Positions 368-6,791 of a stretch of 6,791 bases of DNA are shown here, in pieces. Both the position numbers and the translations under genes were made by a program. Every line of letters starts with the position of its first letter. Position 1 is the first letter of the stretch. The notes beneath the pieces are model-generated. The model was not told the DNA's origin. It worked only from the letters and a program-made list of their open reading frames with translations, and ran no database searches. Source of the stretch: an uncultured Sphingosinicella sp. (GTDB taxonomy: Bacteria; Pseudomonadota; Alphaproteobacteria; Sphingomonadales; Sphingomonadaceae); assembly GCA_946886275.1 (NCBI GenBank), contig CAMPIH010000125.1, positions 1 through 6,791 on the forward strand, read 5' to 3'.

Positions 368-463
368 TCAGGGGGCGAGCCACCAGCGCAGGACGAAGGC
401 CACGGCCCCGACGATGGCGATGCTCGCCGCCCACAGGCCGACGAACCAGCCGATCTGCCTCAA
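368..463 (-). CDS. Small single-pass membrane protein, DUF2474/CydX-like bd-oxidase small subunit
   Basis: This is a 31-codon frame right after cydB that reads M(TTG)RQIGWFVGLWAASIAIVG, then a second hydrophobic stretch, and ends RWWLAP before TGA (370-368). It is one transmembrane helix with a basic/aromatic start and an RWW end. That is the pattern of the DUF2474 proteins that follow cioAB/cydAB operons, and it parallels CydX of E. coli, a small subunit needed for stable bd oxidase. The candidate TTG start begins 1 nt after the cydB stop. The same frame stays open upstream through the last cydB codons, where ATC and ATT codons lie closer to an AGGG ribosome-binding-like sequence (about 13 nt from the TTG). 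The true start is therefore uncertain, and a non-ATG start is unavoidable near this point. Position, length and composition support the call. The family assignment is from memory of the pattern, not from a search. Confidence 0.7.
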   Translation of the reverse strand: MRQIGWFVGLWAASIAIVGAVAFVLRWWLAP

Positions 464-464
464 T

Positions 465-1460
465 CTAATGATAGCCCTGCTCGCCGACCTTGCCCCTGAA
501 CACCCAATAGGCCCAGCCGGTATAGGCAAGGATCATCGGCACCAGCACGAGCGCGCCGACGAGCATGAAGAGCTGGCTCTCATAGGGCGCCGCGGCCTGC
601 CAGATCGTGACCCGGCCCGGGATCACGTCCGGCCAGATCGAGACGGCGAGCCCCGCCATCGACAGCAGGAACAGGGCCAGGGTCAGGACGAAGGGCAGCC
701 AGTCGCGGCCGCCGCCGAGGCTGCGCCACAGAGCGAAGGCGATTCCGGCGACGAGCAGTGGCATCGGCACGGCGACGATGAGCCCCGGATAATCGAACCA
801 GCGCTCGAAATAGCGCGGCTCGACGAACGGGGTCGCGAGGCTGACCAGCCCGATCGCGGCGAGAAGCGCCGGAACCAGGAAACGGGCGTGACGGCGGGCG
901 TCGGACTGGATCTGCCCCTCCGTCTTCCAGATCAGCCAGCCGGCACCGAGCAGGGCATAGCCGATGACGAGGGCGGCGCCGGTCAGCAGGCTGAACGGGG
1001 TCAGCCATTCCCACCAGCCGCCGGAATAGGCCCGGCCGTCGACGCTGATCCCCTGAAGCAAAGCGCCGAGCGTGATTCCCTGGGCGAAGGTGGCGACCAG
1101 CGAGCCGAGACAGAAGCCGGCATCCCAGAATCGGCGATGGCCGGGGTCGCGCCAGCGGAACTCGAAGGCGACGCCGCGGAAGACGAGCCCGAGAAGCATC
1201 GCGATCAACGGTGCGTAGAGGGCGGGAAGGATGATCGCATAAGCGAGCGGAAAGGCCGCGAGGAGCCCGCCGCCGCCGAGCACCAGCCAGGTTTCGTTGC
1301 CGTCCCAGACGGGCGCGATGCTGTTCATCGCCTGGTCGCGCTCCTTGCCGACTCGGAAGCCGGGAAAGAGGATCCCGATGCCGAGGTCGAAGCCGTCCAT
1401 GACGACGTAAGCGGCGACGGCGAAGGCGATCAGGAATGCCCAGACGATCGTCAGGTCCAT
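465..1460 (-). CDS. cydB: Cytochrome bd-type quinol oxidase subunit II (CydB/CioB)
   Basis: This is the 331-residue integral membrane subunit II of a bd-type terminal oxidase, which oxidises quinol and reduces oxygen to water in the inner membrane without pumping protons. The family signature is clear: DGFDLG at residues 22-27 in the first helix, and NSIAPVWDGNETW at about 46-58 before the second. The latter is the conserved region containing the W-D-G-N stretch. Several more hydrophobic helices follow, ending at about residues 298-321 near the C-terminus. The length fits the shorter CIO-type CydB rather than the roughly 380-residue E. coli protein. The ATG at 1460 overlaps the MAPEG stop as TGATG, with AGGAGG 7 nt upstream inside the MAPEG coding sequence, so translation is probably coupled. 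The protein pairs with CydA at 2098-3534. It is unusual that the two subunit genes are separated by another gene. Confidence 0.97.
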   Translation of the reverse strand: MDLTIVWAFLIAFAVAAYVVMDGFDLGIGILFPGFRVGKERDQAMNSIAPVWDGNETWLVLGGGGLLAAFPLAYAIILPALYAPLIAMLLGLVFRGVAFEFRWRDPGHRRFWDAGFCLGSLVATFAQGITLGALLQGISVDGRAYSGGWWEWLTPFSLLTGAALVIGYALLGAGWLIWKTEGQIQSDARRHARFLVPALLAAIGLVSLATPFVEPRYFERWFDYPGLIVAVPMPLLVAGIAFALWRSLGGGRDWLPFVLTLALFLLSMAGLAVSIWPDVIPGRVTIWQAAAPYESQLFMLVGALVLVPMILAYTGWAYWVFRGKVGEQGYH

Positions 1461-1477
1461 CAGAGCGCCTCCTCGCC
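1457..1477 (-). repeat. Junction repeat copy 1 (MAPEG/cydB boundary)
   Basis: This 21-bp segment holds the end of the MAPEG gene, an AGGAGG ribosome-binding site and the TGATGG stop/start of cydB. It matches 2095-2115 at 19 of 21 positions. The two differences are at 1464 versus 2102 and at 1476 versus 2114. The copies are in direct orientation, 638 bp apart, exactly the repeat-to-repeat unit that contains the MAPEG gene. Confidence 0.85.
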
Positions 1478-2098
1478 GATGGACTCGGGACTGCGCGTTC
1501 CCCAGAACAGGACGGCTTCGAACAGGAGAAAGGCGCCGATCACGACGGCCGAGCCGATCGAGCCGGCGACGTCGGCGCCGATCCTGGCCGCGACATAGAG
1601 AAGCGCCAGCATCGTCACCAGCATGCCCGGCGCGCCGAGGCCGCGAAGCGCCGCGCTTCGATGATAGCCGATCCAGAAGGCGAAGCGGGCCAGGATCCAG
1701 ACGATGGTCGTGGCGAGCACGGACCTGATCGAGTCCCCGTCCTCGCTATAGGCGGCAAGCCCGAAGAGCGCGGCGGCGAGGACGATGATCTGCTCGACCG
1801 TGTTCTGGAGATAGCGCTGGTTCACCTCAAGCCGGCGGGTCGAATGAGGATCGAGCGGATCGAAAGCCGGCGAGCCCAGCCGTTCGTGGGCGACCGCCTC
1901 GACTCCGGTCACCAGGCAGAAAAGCACGGCCAGGCAGAAGCATTTGAGAGTGAAGACCATCCGCCCGGAAAAATCCTCCATGCCGTCGAGCGGCGGCGCG
2001 CAGAAGCGGATGGCGAACCAGAGCAGCGAGGCGACCAGGCTTGCCGCGGCGATCGCCGCCATCCCGCTCCTGCGCTGGGCCCGCCAATCGCCCGCCAT
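1460..2098 (-). CDS. MAPEG-family membrane protein encoded between cydA and cydB
   Basis: This is a 212-residue, very hydrophobic protein. Residues 90-102 read LEVNQRYLQNTVE, leading straight into a helix. This is the hallmark of MAPEG proteins (membrane-associated proteins in eicosanoid and glutathione metabolism), where a conserved R/N/E cluster at the start of a helix binds glutathione in active members. Hydrophobic segments lie at about 13-31, 48-68, 101-118, 125-144, 149-171 and 178-199. That suggests up to six helices, against four in the classic fold, and makes it longer than the usual 130-160 residues. The ATG at 2098 overlaps the cydA stop as TGATG, with AGGAGG 7 nt upstream, and its own stop overlaps the cydB ATG in the same way. 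Known relatives include glutathione transferases/peroxidases and proteins without proven activity. The enzymatic role here is unknown. Its place suggests co-expression with the oxidase at matched levels, possibly for lipid peroxide detoxification or as an accessory subunit (inference). The frame is open upstream into cydA, but that extension is a shadow. Confidence 0.87.
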   Translation of the reverse strand: MAGDWRAQRRSGMAAIAAASLVASLLWFAIRFCAPPLDGMEDFSGRMVFTLKCFCLAVLFCLVTGVEAVAHERLGSPAFDPLDPHSTRRLEVNQRYLQNTVEQIIVLAAALFGLAAYSEDGDSIRSVLATTIVWILARFAFWIGYHRSAALRGLGAPGMLVTMLALLYVAARIGADVAGSIGSAVVIGAFLLFEAVLFWGTRSPESIGEEAL

Positions 2099-2115
2099 CA
2101 GCGCGCCTCCTCGTC
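2095..2115 (-). repeat. Junction repeat copy 2 (cydA/MAPEG boundary)
   Basis: This is the second copy of the 21-bp junction. It holds the last cydA codons (DEEAR then stop), AGGAGG, and the TGATGG stop/start of the MAPEG gene. The copy at 1457-1477 encodes GEEAL then stop. Both therefore encode a matching acidic GAG GAG GCG ending that doubles as a ribosome-binding site. Confidence 0.85.
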
Positions 2116-3534
2116 GGGAGAAGGATCCGATTCGCCGCCGCGCCGCTCGACGGCCGGCGCCGGAGTGATACCTGCGCTTCGGATCGGCTGCTCCGCCGGC
2201 CGCGGCTCGCCTGCCTTGGGCGCGTGGGCCATGAGCTTCAAGATGTAGATCGTGCCGGCGGCGAAGACCGTGAAATAGACGATGACGAAGGCGATCAGGG
2301 ATCCGGTGACGCCGGGGGTCGCGATCGGCGACACCGCGTCCTTCGTCCTGAGCAGGCCGTAGATCACCCAGGGCTGGCGGCCGACCTCGGTCGTGACCCA
2401 GCCGGCGATGACGGCGACGAAACCGGCCGGCCCCATCACAAGCGCGAACAGGTGGAGCGGGCGCCAGTCGTAGAGGCGGTGGCGGACGCGCGCGACCAGG
2501 CTGAACAGGCCGAGCAGGAACATCAAGGTGCCGAGCCCGACCATGATCCGGAACGACCAGAAGACGATCCCCACCGGCGGCCGCTCGTCGCGCGGCCAGG
2601 CGTCGAGACCGGTCACCGGCGCGTTCCAGCCATGGTGGAGGATGAGCGAGGACAGGTTCGGGATCTCGACGCTGGCATGGACCGTCTCGGCTTCGGAATC
2701 CGGGATTCCGAACAGGATCAAGGGGGCGCCGTCCGGATAGGAACGGAAATGGCCTTCCATCGCCGCGATCTTCTGCGGCTGGTGCTCGAGCGTGTTGAGC
2801 CCGTGCAGGTCGCCGACGAAAATCTGCACCGGAGCGACGAGCGCAAGCATCCACATCGCCATCGAGAACATCCGCCTCACCTCGGGCGTGTCCCGGCGGC
2901 GAAGCAGGTGCCAGGCGCCGGCGCCGCCGACGACCAAGGCGGTGGTGAGATAGGCGGCGAGCACGGTGTGGACGAGGCGGTAGGGAAAGCTGGGATTGAA
3001 GATGATCTCCAGCCATCCTCCCGAAGGGACGAACTGGCCGACCTCGTTGAGCGCCCAGCCGACCGGGGTCTGCATCCAGCTGTTCACGCTCAGGATCCAG
3101 AAGGCCGAGATGAAGGTGCCGATGGCGACCATCAGGGTCGCCGCGAAATGAAGCCCCTTCCCCACCCTTTCCATCCCGAACAGCATGACCCCGAGGAAGC
3201 CGGCTTCGAGAAAGAAGGCGGTGAGGACCTCATAGGCCATGAGCGGCCCGATGATCGGCCCGGCCCGATCGGAGAAGACCGACCAGTTGGTGCCGAACTG
3301 GTAGGACATGACGATCCCGGAGACGACGCCCATCGCGAAGGTCAGCGCGAAGATCTTCAGCCAGTAGCGGAACAGGTTGAGATAGGAGTCCTGGCCGGTC
3401 TTGAGCCAGAGCGCCTCGAGCACCGCAAGATAGGAAGCGAGGCCGATCGAGAAGGCCGGAAAGATGAAGTGGAAGGAGATCGTGAACGCGAACTGCGCTC
3501 GGGCCAGGATCAATGCGGTTTCGGCATCGGCCAC
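2098..3534 (-). CDS. cydA: Cytochrome bd-type quinol oxidase subunit I (CydA/CioA), short Q-loop
   Basis: This is the 478-residue haem-bearing subunit I of the bd oxidase, which takes electrons from quinol and reduces oxygen in the inner membrane. Residues known from E. coli CydA are present at a constant offset of +3: haem ligand H22 (E. coli H19), E102 and E110 (E99, E107), haem ligand H189 (H186), and Q-loop K255 and E260 (K252, E257). The haem b558 pair R329 and M331 (R391, M393) then falls 65 residues short, so the Q-loop is the short CIO/S-type. GRQPW lies at 385-389. The last helix ends near 436. A hydrophilic tail rich in Pro, Arg and Glu follows (about 437-478). The start is GTG, with AGGGA 6 nt upstream; no ATG lies near. 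It follows the S33 peptidase gene by 14 nt and overlaps the MAPEG start by 1 nt. No cydDC assembly genes are visible in the window. Confidence 0.97.
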   Translation of the reverse strand: MADAETALILARAQFAFTISFHFIFPAFSIGLASYLAVLEALWLKTGQDSYLNLFRYWLKIFALTFAMGVVSGIVMSYQFGTNWSVFSDRAGPIIGPLMAYEVLTAFFLEAGFLGVMLFGMERVGKGLHFAATLMVAIGTFISAFWILSVNSWMQTPVGWALNEVGQFVPSGGWLEIIFNPSFPYRLVHTVLAAYLTTALVVGGAGAWHLLRRRDTPEVRRMFSMAMWMLALVAPVQIFVGDLHGLNTLEHQPQKIAAMEGHFRSYPDGAPLILFGIPDSEAETVHASVEIPNLSSLILHHGWNAPVTGLDAWPRDERPPVGIVFWSFRIMVGLGTLMFLLGLFSLVARVRHRLYDWRPLHLFALVMGPAGFVAVIAGWVTTEVGRQPWVIYGLLRTKDAVSPIATPGVTGSLIAFVIVYFTVFAAGTIYILKLMAHAPKAGEPRPAEQPIRSAGITPAPAVERRGGESDPSPDEEAR

Positions 3535-3548
3535 GCGCCGTCCCTAGC

Positions 3549-4970
3549 TCAGGGCGAAGGAGAGTTCATCCCCCAATCCGCCGGCGGCTCGAGGAGAAAT
3601 GAAGGCGGCCGCACTTGTGCGAGGCAGGTCGGATCGAGCCGGTTCGGATCGCCATGGTCGAGAAAGGCGATGAGCAAGGGGTCGAGGCAGGTGTCGATTC
3701 CGGAAAGCCCGTCGGGAATGTGGCCGCCGCCGGAAAGGATGAAATGGCGGGCCCTGCCCGATCGCTGGGCGACCGCCTCGGCCCAGTCGGGCGGAGTAAC
3801 GGGATCGAGCTCGCCCGACACGAAGAGGACAGAGGCGCTCGGCCGCGGCGGGTCGAAGAAACTGGCGGCGGTCGCTGCCACGGGCCAGTCCTCGCAAGCC
3901 GCGCGCTGGCGGCGGAGGCGATAGTCGCCGAACAGGGTATTCCGCGCGGCGGCGCTGGCCTGTTCGAAGTCCATTCCGGCCATGCCCTCGGCGCAGACGA
4001 TGGACAGATAGACGCCGTCGCTGTCCAGCGCCGGCTCGGTTCGGCGGGTGGCGGCGAAGAAGGGCCGGAGATCGCCGTCCGCGGCGTAGCGCAGGATCAG
4101 GGGGATCATCCGCGCCCGGGCGGGAGCGTACATCAGGCTTCGAAGCCGTTCGAGGAAGACGTCGCGATCGGGAGCGCCGGAAATGCCCGGCAGCAGGGCC
4201 AGCGCGCGGTCGAGATCGACTCGGGGGTTTGGGAAGCGCGAGGCACAGACCGGATCGGCGGCGCAGGCGGCGAACAGGCCGGTAAGCGCGCGCTGGCCGG
4301 CTGGGGCATGGCCGGAAGGCACTCGCGCCTCCGGGGTCGCCGTGCCGAGCAGGACCATCGCCCTCGCGCGGCCGGGAAAGAGCTGGTCGTAGCGAAGGGC
4401 GAGCAGGGTCCCGTAGGACAGGCCGAACAGGTCGATCCTGTCATGGCCAAGCGCCTGCCGGACCGCCTCCAGATCGGCCGCGGCGGCGTCCGTACCGTAA
4501 TGCTCCAGCCGCGCGCGGCTCGACAGGGAGGTCCGGCAGGCGGCGACCCGCTCGACCGGATAGAAAAGCTCATATTGGCGGTCGGGCGAAGCGAGGTCGG
4601 GGCACTGAAGCCCATTGGACCGGCCGGTGCCGCGCTGATCGAGCAGGACGATATCGCGACCCTCGCGATAGGCGCCGCCGAAGCTCAGATAGAATTCGGC
4701 AGTCTGGGTCGCGGGAAGGCCGGGTCCGCCCGCGAGATCGTAGAGCGGCAGCAGCCTTTTCTCGCCGGTCGCGGGAAGAATGACGAGATTGAGCGCGATC
4801 CGCCGCCCGCCTGGATCGGCCCGGTCCTCCGGCACGCTGACGATCCCGCAGCGTGCCGTCTCGCCGATCCGGCTGTCGGCGCAGGGCCGAGCCTCGAAGA
4901 CCGGCGCCTGCGCCCAGGCGCTGGCCGCCAGGAAGAAGCCGAGGCCGGCGGCGAGACGCAAGAGCCTCAT
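3549..4970 (-). CDS. Exported alpha/beta-hydrolase, S33-type (proline/tripeptidyl aminopeptidase-like)
   Basis: This 473-residue protein has a Sec signal peptide (positive MRLLR, hydrophobic stretch 6-18, cleavage likely after AWA at 20 or AQA at 22), so it should work in the periplasm or outside. The fold signatures run in order: GGPG (81-84), an oxyanion-hole motif typical of family S33; DQRGTGRS (111-118); the nucleophile elbow GLSYG (183-187, Ser185); acid Asp389 in GELDPVTPP; and His417 in GGGHIP. The catalytic triad is thus complete. S33 enzymes of this shape remove N-terminal proline or short peptides, but some hydrolyse esters, so the substrate is uncertain. The mature part has ten cysteines (30, 41, 123, 145, 236, 242, 326, 359, 428, 449), consistent with disulfides outside the cytoplasm. 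The ATG at 4970 overlaps the upstream stop as ATGA. I see no good Shine-Dalgarno there, so translational coupling is likely. Confidence 0.88.
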   Translation of the reverse strand: MRLLRLAAGLGFFLAASAWAQAPVFEARPCADSRIGETARCGIVSVPEDRADPGGRRIALNLVILPATGEKRLLPLYDLAGGPGLPATQTAEFYLSFGGAYREGRDIVLLDQRGTGRSNGLQCPDLASPDRQYELFYPVERVAACRTSLSSRARLEHYGTDAAAADLEAVRQALGHDRIDLFGLSYGTLLALRYDQLFPGRARAMVLLGTATPEARVPSGHAPAGQRALTGLFAACAADPVCASRFPNPRVDLDRALALLPGISGAPDRDVFLERLRSLMYAPARARMIPLILRYAADGDLRPFFAATRRTEPALDSDGVYLSIVCAEGMAGMDFEQASAAARNTLFGDYRLRRQRAACEDWPVAATAASFFDPPRPSASVLFVSGELDPVTPPDWAEAVAQRSGRARHFILSGGGHIPDGLSGIDTCLDPLLIAFLDHGDPNRLDPTCLAQVRPPSFLLEPPADWGMNSPSP

Positions 4971-6667
4971 ATGCGCGACGGGTAAGCCGGGCGGATGTCG
5001 GTCGGGATATGGGCGGTCGCAGCGAGCGCAGTGCGCGCTTCGTCGTCGAGCCGCGCGTAGCGCTCGAAGAAGGCACGAGTGCCCTCATAATCGCCATTGC
5101 CCTGAAGCCGCACCAGCTCGCCGACCAAGTCCCTTATCCCCGCCTCCATTCGCGGATAGTCGATTCGGAAGCGCCGTTGCGAAGAATCCCAGGCGAAGGC
5201 GCCCTTCTCCTTCAGATAGGCATATTGGACGGCGGCGCCGCGGCCATGGGCCTCGTCGATGCCGAAGCGGACGGCCCTGAAGATGCCCGCGAAATAGGTG
5301 GCGAGCGCCGATTCGCGCTCGGCCGCCGGAAGTTCTCCGCGCTCCATCATGTAGAGGATGTTCCACACCCCCATGACGTCGGCCTTGCACTCCTCGCTCG
5401 CCGAATAGACGTCGCGAAGCTCGGCATTCACCGTCGTCTGCCGGCCGTCGACGATGATCGTTCCGGGCCCGAGGCTGTGGGACAGTTCGTGGAACAGGGT
5501 TTCCTCGGTCATCCAGCGCCGGCTCACCAGCCGGGCCTGCTCCGGGACGAGGACGAACTGGGCCATCGGCGCCAGGATCCGCTCATATTTGGCGCCCAGG
5601 ACGTTGGCGAGGATCACCTTCTTGGCGCCCTTGGTCTCGCGCACGCGCTCGTCGTTGGGAAGGTTGAACGCGATCGTCTGCACCCCGGGCACATTGTCGC
5701 CGCCGCCATGGACCTGGTCGGCCACGAGGATCGGGGAATCGAAGCGGCGGTTGAAATTCTTGTAGCGTTCCTCGACCGGGAGGTTGCGCTCCATGTCCGG
5801 CAGTAGCGCCTTGTAGCGGTCGAGCGCTGCGCTGGCCTCCGGGTCCTTGACGGTGATGAAGGCCTCGAACGCCGTCTTCTGACCGTAGAGCGTGTCGGTA
5901 TAGACTTCGTAGGGGCCGATCACCGGCTCGATCGGAGTCCCGCTGATGTCCATCCAGGCGAGCTCCGAGGGATAATAATCGTTGGTCCGGAACGCCTCGG
6001 CGCGAAGCTGGAGGAAGTTGCGAAGGCTCTGGTTGCTCGTCGTCCTGGCCGCCTCCTCGAGCAGCCGCGCCGCCGGCTCCAGCCATTCGCGATAGGCTTC
6101 GCTATAGGGGATCGCGACGAGCCGGTCACCTTGCCGGCGGACGATCGTATAGCCGCTGGTCAGCGCCTCGCGCTGGTCCGGATGGGCAGCGAGATAGGCA
6201 TCGAACGCTTCCTTCGTCATATCCTCCGGGTAGAAGCCGGCGCCCGGCGGCATCGGCTGGTCGCCCCAGAAGGGATGGTTTTCGGCAAGAGTGTCCCACG
6301 GGCCGAAATGAAGGTCGAACATGTCGAGCAAGGCGGCACGATCAGGCGCGTTGCTCGCCGCGATCGCCTGGCGGATCTGCGGATTGCGGGCCGATCGCTG
6401 GCGAAGATAGATTTCGCTCATCAACTCGGCGGCCCGGTTGAGGAGGTTCACCACCTGCCGCTCCTCGGCATTGAGGAAGCTGGTGTCGGGATTCATCGCG
6501 ATGTCGGCGAACTTGGCGCGCTGCGCAGCGAGGTCGTAGCTATCATGGCCGGCGACGGAATCGGCGGTGGCAGCGGCTGGTGGGGGCGGTGCCGGCTGCG
6601 GCTCGGCCTGCGGCATGGTGCAGGCCGCCGTCGAGATCATCAAAGCCGCCAGGAACGCCTTGCGCAT
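4967..6667 (-). CDS. Lipoprotein-like zinc metallopeptidase, dipeptidyl peptidase III (M49) type
   Basis: From the ATG at 6667 this is a 566-residue protein. A basic start and hydrophobic stretch lead to STAAC, a plausible lipobox with Cys16 as the lipidated residue. A Pro/Ala-rich linker (about 19-35) follows, which would tether the enzyme in the periplasm. The C-terminal half has GGGDNVPG (321-328), FNLPND (334-339), the zinc motif HELSH (393-397, in LFHELSHSLGPG) and EECKAD (425-430). The last of these supplies the third zinc ligand, by comparison with EECRAE of DPP III. Classic DPP III has HEXXGH and about 650-740 residues; this shorter HEXXH form resembles the M49-like domain also seen in plant NUDT3-type proteins. 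DPP III removes dipeptides from peptide N-termini; the substrate here is unknown. GTG codons at 6673 and 6670 are also in frame, but AGGAGG at 6676-6681 sits 8 nt from the ATG and too close to them. It is the first gene of the apparent operon. Confidence 0.85.
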   Translation of the reverse strand: MRKAFLAALMISTAACTMPQAEPQPAPPPPAAATADSVAGHDSYDLAAQRAKFADIAMNPDTSFLNAEERQVVNLLNRAAELMSEIYLRQRSARNPQIRQAIAASNAPDRAALLDMFDLHFGPWDTLAENHPFWGDQPMPPGAGFYPEDMTKEAFDAYLAAHPDQREALTSGYTIVRRQGDRLVAIPYSEAYREWLEPAARLLEEAARTTSNQSLRNFLQLRAEAFRTNDYYPSELAWMDISGTPIEPVIGPYEVYTDTLYGQKTAFEAFITVKDPEASAALDRYKALLPDMERNLPVEERYKNFNRRFDSPILVADQVHGGGDNVPGVQTIAFNLPNDERVRETKGAKKVILANVLGAKYERILAPMAQFVLVPEQARLVSRRWMTEETLFHELSHSLGPGTIIVDGRQTTVNAELRDVYSASEECKADVMGVWNILYMMERGELPAAERESALATYFAGIFRAVRFGIDEAHGRGAAVQYAYLKEKGAFAWDSSQRRFRIDYPRMEAGIRDLVGELVRLQGNGDYEGTRAFFERYARLDDEARTALAATAHIPTDIRPAYPSRI

Positions 6668-6791
6668 CACCACTTCCTCCTCGAAACGTTACGAAGCCGG
6701 TTTAACGGCGGAGACGGGATTCAGCTAGGGCGGCGGCGAACGGACCGGATCGGCAACCTGGCGACAGCCGCAGCGTTACAGCCTTCTTCCC
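6668..6791. other. Leader region upstream of the operon, no gene recognised
   Basis: This 124-bp stretch carries the strong Shine-Dalgarno AGGAGG (6676-6681, minus strand) of the M49 gene. Just upstream is the near-perfect palindrome CGTAACGTTTCG (minus strand, 6682-6693; 5 of 6 pairs). No convincing -35/-10 pair and no FNR-like TTGAT-N4-ATCAA site was found. One minus-strand frame is open from the right edge to a TAA near 6701-6703, and another to a TGA at 6721-6723. Either could be the tail of an upstream gene, but the residues are too few to recognise. I see no plus-strand start. Confidence 0.4.

Follow-up and report, generated by a model that had tools for sequence, protein, structure and literature searches.

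What does a MAPEG gene do between cydA and cydB, the two subunit genes of a bd oxidase? This question is raised by a stretch of 6,791 nucleotides from an uncultured Sphingosinicella sp. (contig CAMPIH010000125.1 of assembly GCA_946886275.1), the whole of which is referred to below as the window. The gene order had been described in an initial annotation, together with TGATG overlaps at both ends of the MAPEG gene; both observations are confirmed, the former by the coordinates and by Pfam (Table 1). The span then given, 1460-3534, covers cydA and the MAPEG gene, and cydB itself extends to position 465. The arrangement is real but rare and bound to a lineage, and it brings known protein families together in a new order. 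In the explanation that we favor, with a probability of about 0.55, a native gene for a MAPEG protein of the glutathione transferase/peroxidase type was captured into the cydA/cydB junction of an operon of the cyanide-insensitive oxidase (CIO) type, is co-expressed with it and works beside the oxidase.

The junctions of the MAPEG gene and its product

The MAPEG gene shares a single base with each of its neighbors, within a TGATG present at both the cydA/MAPEG and the MAPEG/cydB junctions. The motif GAGGAGG is found 7 bases upstream of the MAPEG and cydB starts, within the last codons of the preceding gene. These elements belong to a 19-base stretch found on either side of the MAPEG gene, with 18/19 positions identical. 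Among 46 distinct loci of relatives, 19 also have cydA joined directly to cydB by a TGATG, and four of these 19 carry GAGGAGG close before it. The insertion of the MAPEG gene is precise, and the junctions that flank it resemble in kind the one between cydA and cydB in relatives. A duplication of this junction during the insertion would give the 19-base repeat; alternatively, the same ribosome site may have been selected independently on each side. In the near relatives L083, L084 and L087, about 100-170 bases separate cydA from cydB, without any overlap.

Since both junctions look like translational coupling, the shared production of CydA, MAPEG and CydB that had been proposed earlier is a natural inference. 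The coupled appearance of the junctions stands, and a single message for the three genes is what we infer from it. According to the mechanism envisaged here, an otherwise stand-alone MAPEG gene would have been captured into the coupling junction in one Allosphingosinicella-like lineage. As the middle cistron, it would be translated by ribosomes leaving cydA and re-initiating at TGATG, and the ribosomes finishing it would restart on cydB.

The product belongs to the MAPEG superfamily on the basis of Pfam PF01124, with a score above the curated cut-off. This answers positively the profile check suggested for the 212-residue protein, and the residues of the glutathione site are kept as well. Its predicted fold consists of an extra N-terminal helix (residues 4-33) followed by a four-helix core, that is, a membrane bundle of the LTC4S/MGST2 kind. 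Residues R95, N99, E102, R138, Y145 and R152 correspond to R51, N55, E58, R90, Y97 and R104 of MGST2, a pairing made by motif and not by structural alignment. Each of these residues is kept in 60-61 of the 61 rows of alignment A1, which combines the window protein, four loci and 56 of the 120 listed homologues, protein P0007 being left out. The window protein and its homologue P0006 differ at 20 residues, of which 1 affects a column conserved across the remaining 58 rows, against 7.9 expected (p 0.0004). As judged from this comparison with a homologue seen as a protein sequence only, the protein is kept functional. Among solved structures, sequence searches retrieved no MAPEG, and NCBIfam returned no MAPEG match, its two prenyltransferase models scoring far below their cut-offs.

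Most probably, the MAPEG product would be an MGST2-like glutathione transferase/peroxidase that forms trimers in the inner membrane, its homotrimeric state, glutathione chemistry and substrate all being presumed. It would remove lipid hydroperoxides or membrane electrophiles when the cell makes this oxidase, and would act beside the oxidase without being an obligate part of it. Such a detoxifier is the most reasonable of the functions listed in the initial annotation, and it remains putative. Co-expression would unite two membrane defenses, from which the cell would presumably benefit.

Occurrence among relatives and origin of the gene

In all of the 46 related loci, the distance between the aligned CydA end and the aligned CydB start is at most 178 bases, which leaves no room for a gene of 639 bases. 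The usual adjacency of cydA and cydB, assumed at the outset, is thereby borne out. Five second copies, out of 51 rows, are not counted among the 46, and L031/L032 and L092 (CydA in pieces) lie outside them. In L092, the CydA match is split in two, with a drop in identity in the second piece, and cydB comes immediately after; this is a broken gene or a sequencing error.

Overlapping samples of genomes were drawn from the order, the nearest genus, the family and the class. In the order, MAPEG was found at E <= 1e-20 in 2/396 genomes (G001 and G374) and CydA at E <= 1e-100 in 186/396. At these limits none of the 396 has the arrangement: G001 is without a CydA match and G374 carries the pair on different contigs. 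At the best 30 loci from the 186 genomes with CydA, cydB always adjoins cydA (30/30). The genus with the nearest CydA possesses this subunit in 15/26 genomes, at up to 86% identity, and in none of the 15 does MAPEG lie between cydA and cydB; one of its genomes, G415, has a 63% identical MAPEG on a contig other than that of cyd. The family sample yielded MAPEG at E <= 1e-30 in 2/397 genomes, G415 and G960, the latter showing no cyd in its short MAPEG flank. In the class, a limit of E <= 1e-10 was passed in 5/385 genomes, namely G001 and four at 28-30% identity.

The same result is obtained when the search starts from MAPEG. Neither cydA, cydB nor the small gene that follows them was found beside any of 25 MAPEG loci, within flanks of up to 5 kb, shorter at contig ends. 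Nineteen of these loci (L001-L019, from Sphingomonadales, Acetobacteraceae/Acidiphilium and Paraburkholderia/Burkholderia) encode proteins 57-71% identical to that of the window and belong to the same subfamily, but unlike the window they show no cyd gene within the flanks retrieved (19/19). In 150 genomes of Pseudomonadota, 58 have some MAPEG, 69 have CydB and 47 have both; on the 24 contigs carrying the two together, they are separated by 31 kb in the closest case. This co-occurrence exceeds expectation (Fisher p 4.5e-12), genome size and kinship being uncontrolled.

As MAPEG is absent beside cyd in relatives with adjacent cydAB, the oxidase does not need it, and there is no evidence here for a general new oxidase subunit. 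The accessory subunit first suggested is therefore not upheld as a general feature: no readable relative has MAPEG beside cyd, while cydAB is present and adjacent. Absence from relatives, named beforehand as a result that would speak against the proposal, was found in every genome with a readable neighborhood. Only the metagenome homologues at 99% and 91% identity, which keep the same coupling tail and whose neighbors are unread, soften this result.

These tails bear on the origin of the gene. In a phylogenetic tree, the window protein groups with P0005 and P0006, then with P0008 and P0009 (98/84), inside a 44-row clade (100/96) that includes all known Sphingomonadales rows except the very divergent G418. 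Judging by this grouping, the gene probably came from a relative or from within the same genome. Besides the window, the tree comprises eleven loci, three genomes and 77 of the 120 listed homologues, again without P0007; its bootstrap is not settled, several branches are long and its root is a midpoint only. The C-terminal ends of the closest homologues read EEAL in P0005 and P0006, EEAE in P0008 and EEVR in P0009, and EE occurs within the last seven residues in 7 of the 120 listed homologues. Such tails could encode the ribosome site of a coupled next gene, and their conservation hints at an insertion shared by more than one species, even if these four homologues are seen as proteins whose flanking DNA is unread. 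The longest contigs, 9326 bases for P0005, 8402 for P0006, 9857 for the CydB homologue P0125 and 1796 for the hydrolase P0245, disagree, and no linkage is inferred from them; the contig counts of the protein lists, such as a single contig for the 59 members of P0245, seem to be incomplete. This cydB may also occur in a strain that lacks MAPEG. The Allosphingosinicella-like label rests on the source names of near CydB homologues such as P0126, which is 89% identical. P0007 equals P0005 over its first 74 residues and is very different thereafter; it is probably an assembly chimera, on a contig of 944 bases.

A common neighbor of MAPEG genes was sought at 15 loci from 9 lineage groups, where MAPEG and overlapping shadow frames recur; the neighboring frames 7578-8003 of L014 and 5591-6181 of L011 each match one other lineage group. 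No MAPEG relative was found in phage records or viral contigs, and one at 57% identity is present in two records of Caballeronia plasmids about 2 Mb in size.

The oxidase operon and its surroundings

Table 1. Features of the window and their Pfam profile scores
Feature	Positions	Strand	Pfam evidence
cydA, bd oxidase subunit I, 478 aa, GTG start	2098..3534	-	Cyt_bd_oxida_I, 550 bits
MAPEG gene, 212 aa, ATG start	1460..2098	-	PF01124, 38.5 bits (cut-off 23.4)
cydB, bd oxidase subunit II, 331 aa	465..1460	-	Cyt_bd_oxida_II, 336 bits
31-aa CydZ/DUF2474-like protein with a single helix, start probably TTG	368..463	-	22.9 bits, under cut-off 26.6
cydA/MAPEG junction, GAGGAGG and TGATG, first copy of 19-base repeat	2095..2113	-	
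MAPEG/cydB junction, second copy of 19-base repeat, 18/19 identical	1457..1475	-	
TAP-like alpha/beta hydrolase gene, its end separated from cydA by 14 bases	3549..4970	-	
M49-like peptidase gene, 4-base overlap with hydrolase gene	4967..6673	-	

The homology of CydA and CydB to known oxidase subunits is strong, CydA being 86% identical in G411. The CydZ-like frame that follows cydB shares 57-66% identity with the same frame in L035 and L036, and similar frames occupy this position in most relatives, even if the window copy scores below the Pfam cut-off. No ATG or GTG is in place, and TTG or ATT must serve as its start. In the available text of two papers, DUF2474 accompanies subtype C of CIO (PMC5322542) and the corresponding protein is named CydZ (PMC4325964). 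It is from its gene content (CydA, CydB and a DUF2474-like frame) that the oxidase is taken here to be of the CIO type.

On the minus strand, the genes succeed one another as M49-like peptidase, hydrolase, cydA, MAPEG, cydB, the CydZ-like frame and the start of a GTPase gene (Pfam GTP_EFTU), of which the first 81 codons lie in the window and which we take to be typA-like. The hydrolase gene is possibly on the same transcript as cydA. The counts of promoter and terminator patterns in the window are near those of shuffled sequence. The Pfam match of the M49-like peptidase covers part of its length only (49 bits against a cut-off of 21); L070 and L071 carry copies of it at 72-77% identity, also upstream of cyd. 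The content of the slot between the M49-like gene and cydA varies. It holds the hydrolase gene in the window, a histidine-kinase-like gene on the opposite strand in L070 (6453-7619) and a glutaminase-like gene in L089 (66-1250), the last two being named by eye from their translations.

Competing explanations and known systems

The gene turnover visible in this slot makes chance capture a serious rival, to which we attribute roughly one chance in three. The MAPEG gene would then have landed in an expressed operon and survived because the junction repeat kept cydB translated; it would encode a working enzyme, and its position would tell nothing about the oxidase. The changing slot content, the lack of a widely shared neighbor among MAPEG relatives and the absence of this position in all readable relatives weigh in this direction. 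On the other hand, splitting two subunits of one complex should usually carry a cost, and P0005 and P0006 retain the tail that carries the ribosome site of cydB, with similar ends in P0008 and P0009. A stronger version of the favored explanation is an unlikely one: throughout an Allosphingosinicella-like clade (the window, P0005, P0006, perhaps P0008 and P0009), a dedicated MAPEG trimer beside CydAB would repair peroxidised lipid or quinone at the oxidase, in a ratio fixed by the two coupled junctions.

That MAPEG binds CydAB as an accessory or assembly subunit is less credible still. A middle position coupled at both ends would match the amounts, and other bd oxidases have small extra subunits, CydX/CydS and CydY/CydH, as described in the accessible part of PMC8951039; these, however, are single helices. 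In addition, the MAPEG gene does not travel with cydAB, as seen in the order and in the nearest genus. Only one of the 11 nearest-genus genomes with CydA at 79-86% identity has a MAPEG of the subfamily (G415, on another contig), a second one, G366, has only a 30% match far from cyd, and 4/8 MAPEG-bearing genomes are without a CydA match. Slightly less probable again is an assembly artefact, in which a MAPEG fragment was misjoined into a cydAB contig. The window is possibly a metagenome record, the gene lies between two copies of a repeat of about 19 bases, and a probable chimeric MAPEG protein, P0007, is present in the database. Two false joins would nevertheless both be needed at exact TGATG overlaps with ribosome sites, the repeat contains a mismatch, the composition of the MAPEG gene is like that of its neighbors, and 48 sequences, on contigs of up to 9326 bases, are represented by a protein that is 99% identical and ends in the same tail. 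Least plausible of all is the thiol-linked donor raised in the initial annotation, by which MAPEG would pass glutathione electrons to the quinone pool or the oxidase. Only the order of the genes and the conserved glutathione site speak for it, and we know of no MAPEG protein acting as such a donor.

If the favored explanation holds, a glutathione enzyme made in step with a bd oxidase would tie membrane-lipid repair to respiration. Even as a mere capture, the duplicated coupling junction shows how a gene can enter between two subunit genes while the second is still translated.

A cydA-MAPEG-cydB system is absent from the titles and abstracts covered by a literature search, most subscription journals being outside its coverage. 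Co-mention of MAPEG and cytochrome bd was returned for PMC4602095, the one paper to mention MAPEG, cydA and cydB, whose accessible part treats MAPEG and the cyd genes as separate topics, and for PMC10100675, by term match alone; the accessible part of PMC6431628 holds nothing on such a system. As stated in the consulted sections of PMC8951039, bd oxidases contribute to peroxide, NO and sulfide tolerance, and their extra subunits were long overlooked. For the bacterial MAPEG Sll1147 of Synechocystis, a role in tolerance to heat, cold and lipid peroxides has been tested, its loss lowering tolerance to tert-butyl hydroperoxide and causing a transient build-up of peroxidised lipids (PMC6798054, in part). 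Like the window protein it is a bacterial membrane MAPEG, and by analogy it may serve as a model for the likely job; the likeness is one of description, and no oxidase operon is mentioned in that part of the paper. Human MGST2 and LTC4 synthase are about 20% identical to the window protein, which differs from them by its extra N-terminal helix. As for the operon, cydA, cydB and the single-helix DUF2474-like gene follow one another in subtype C CIO operons in the same order as in the window, and a typA-like gene comes next at locus L089 as it does here. What sets the window apart from these CIO-type cydAB operons is the MAPEG gene between cydA and cydB.
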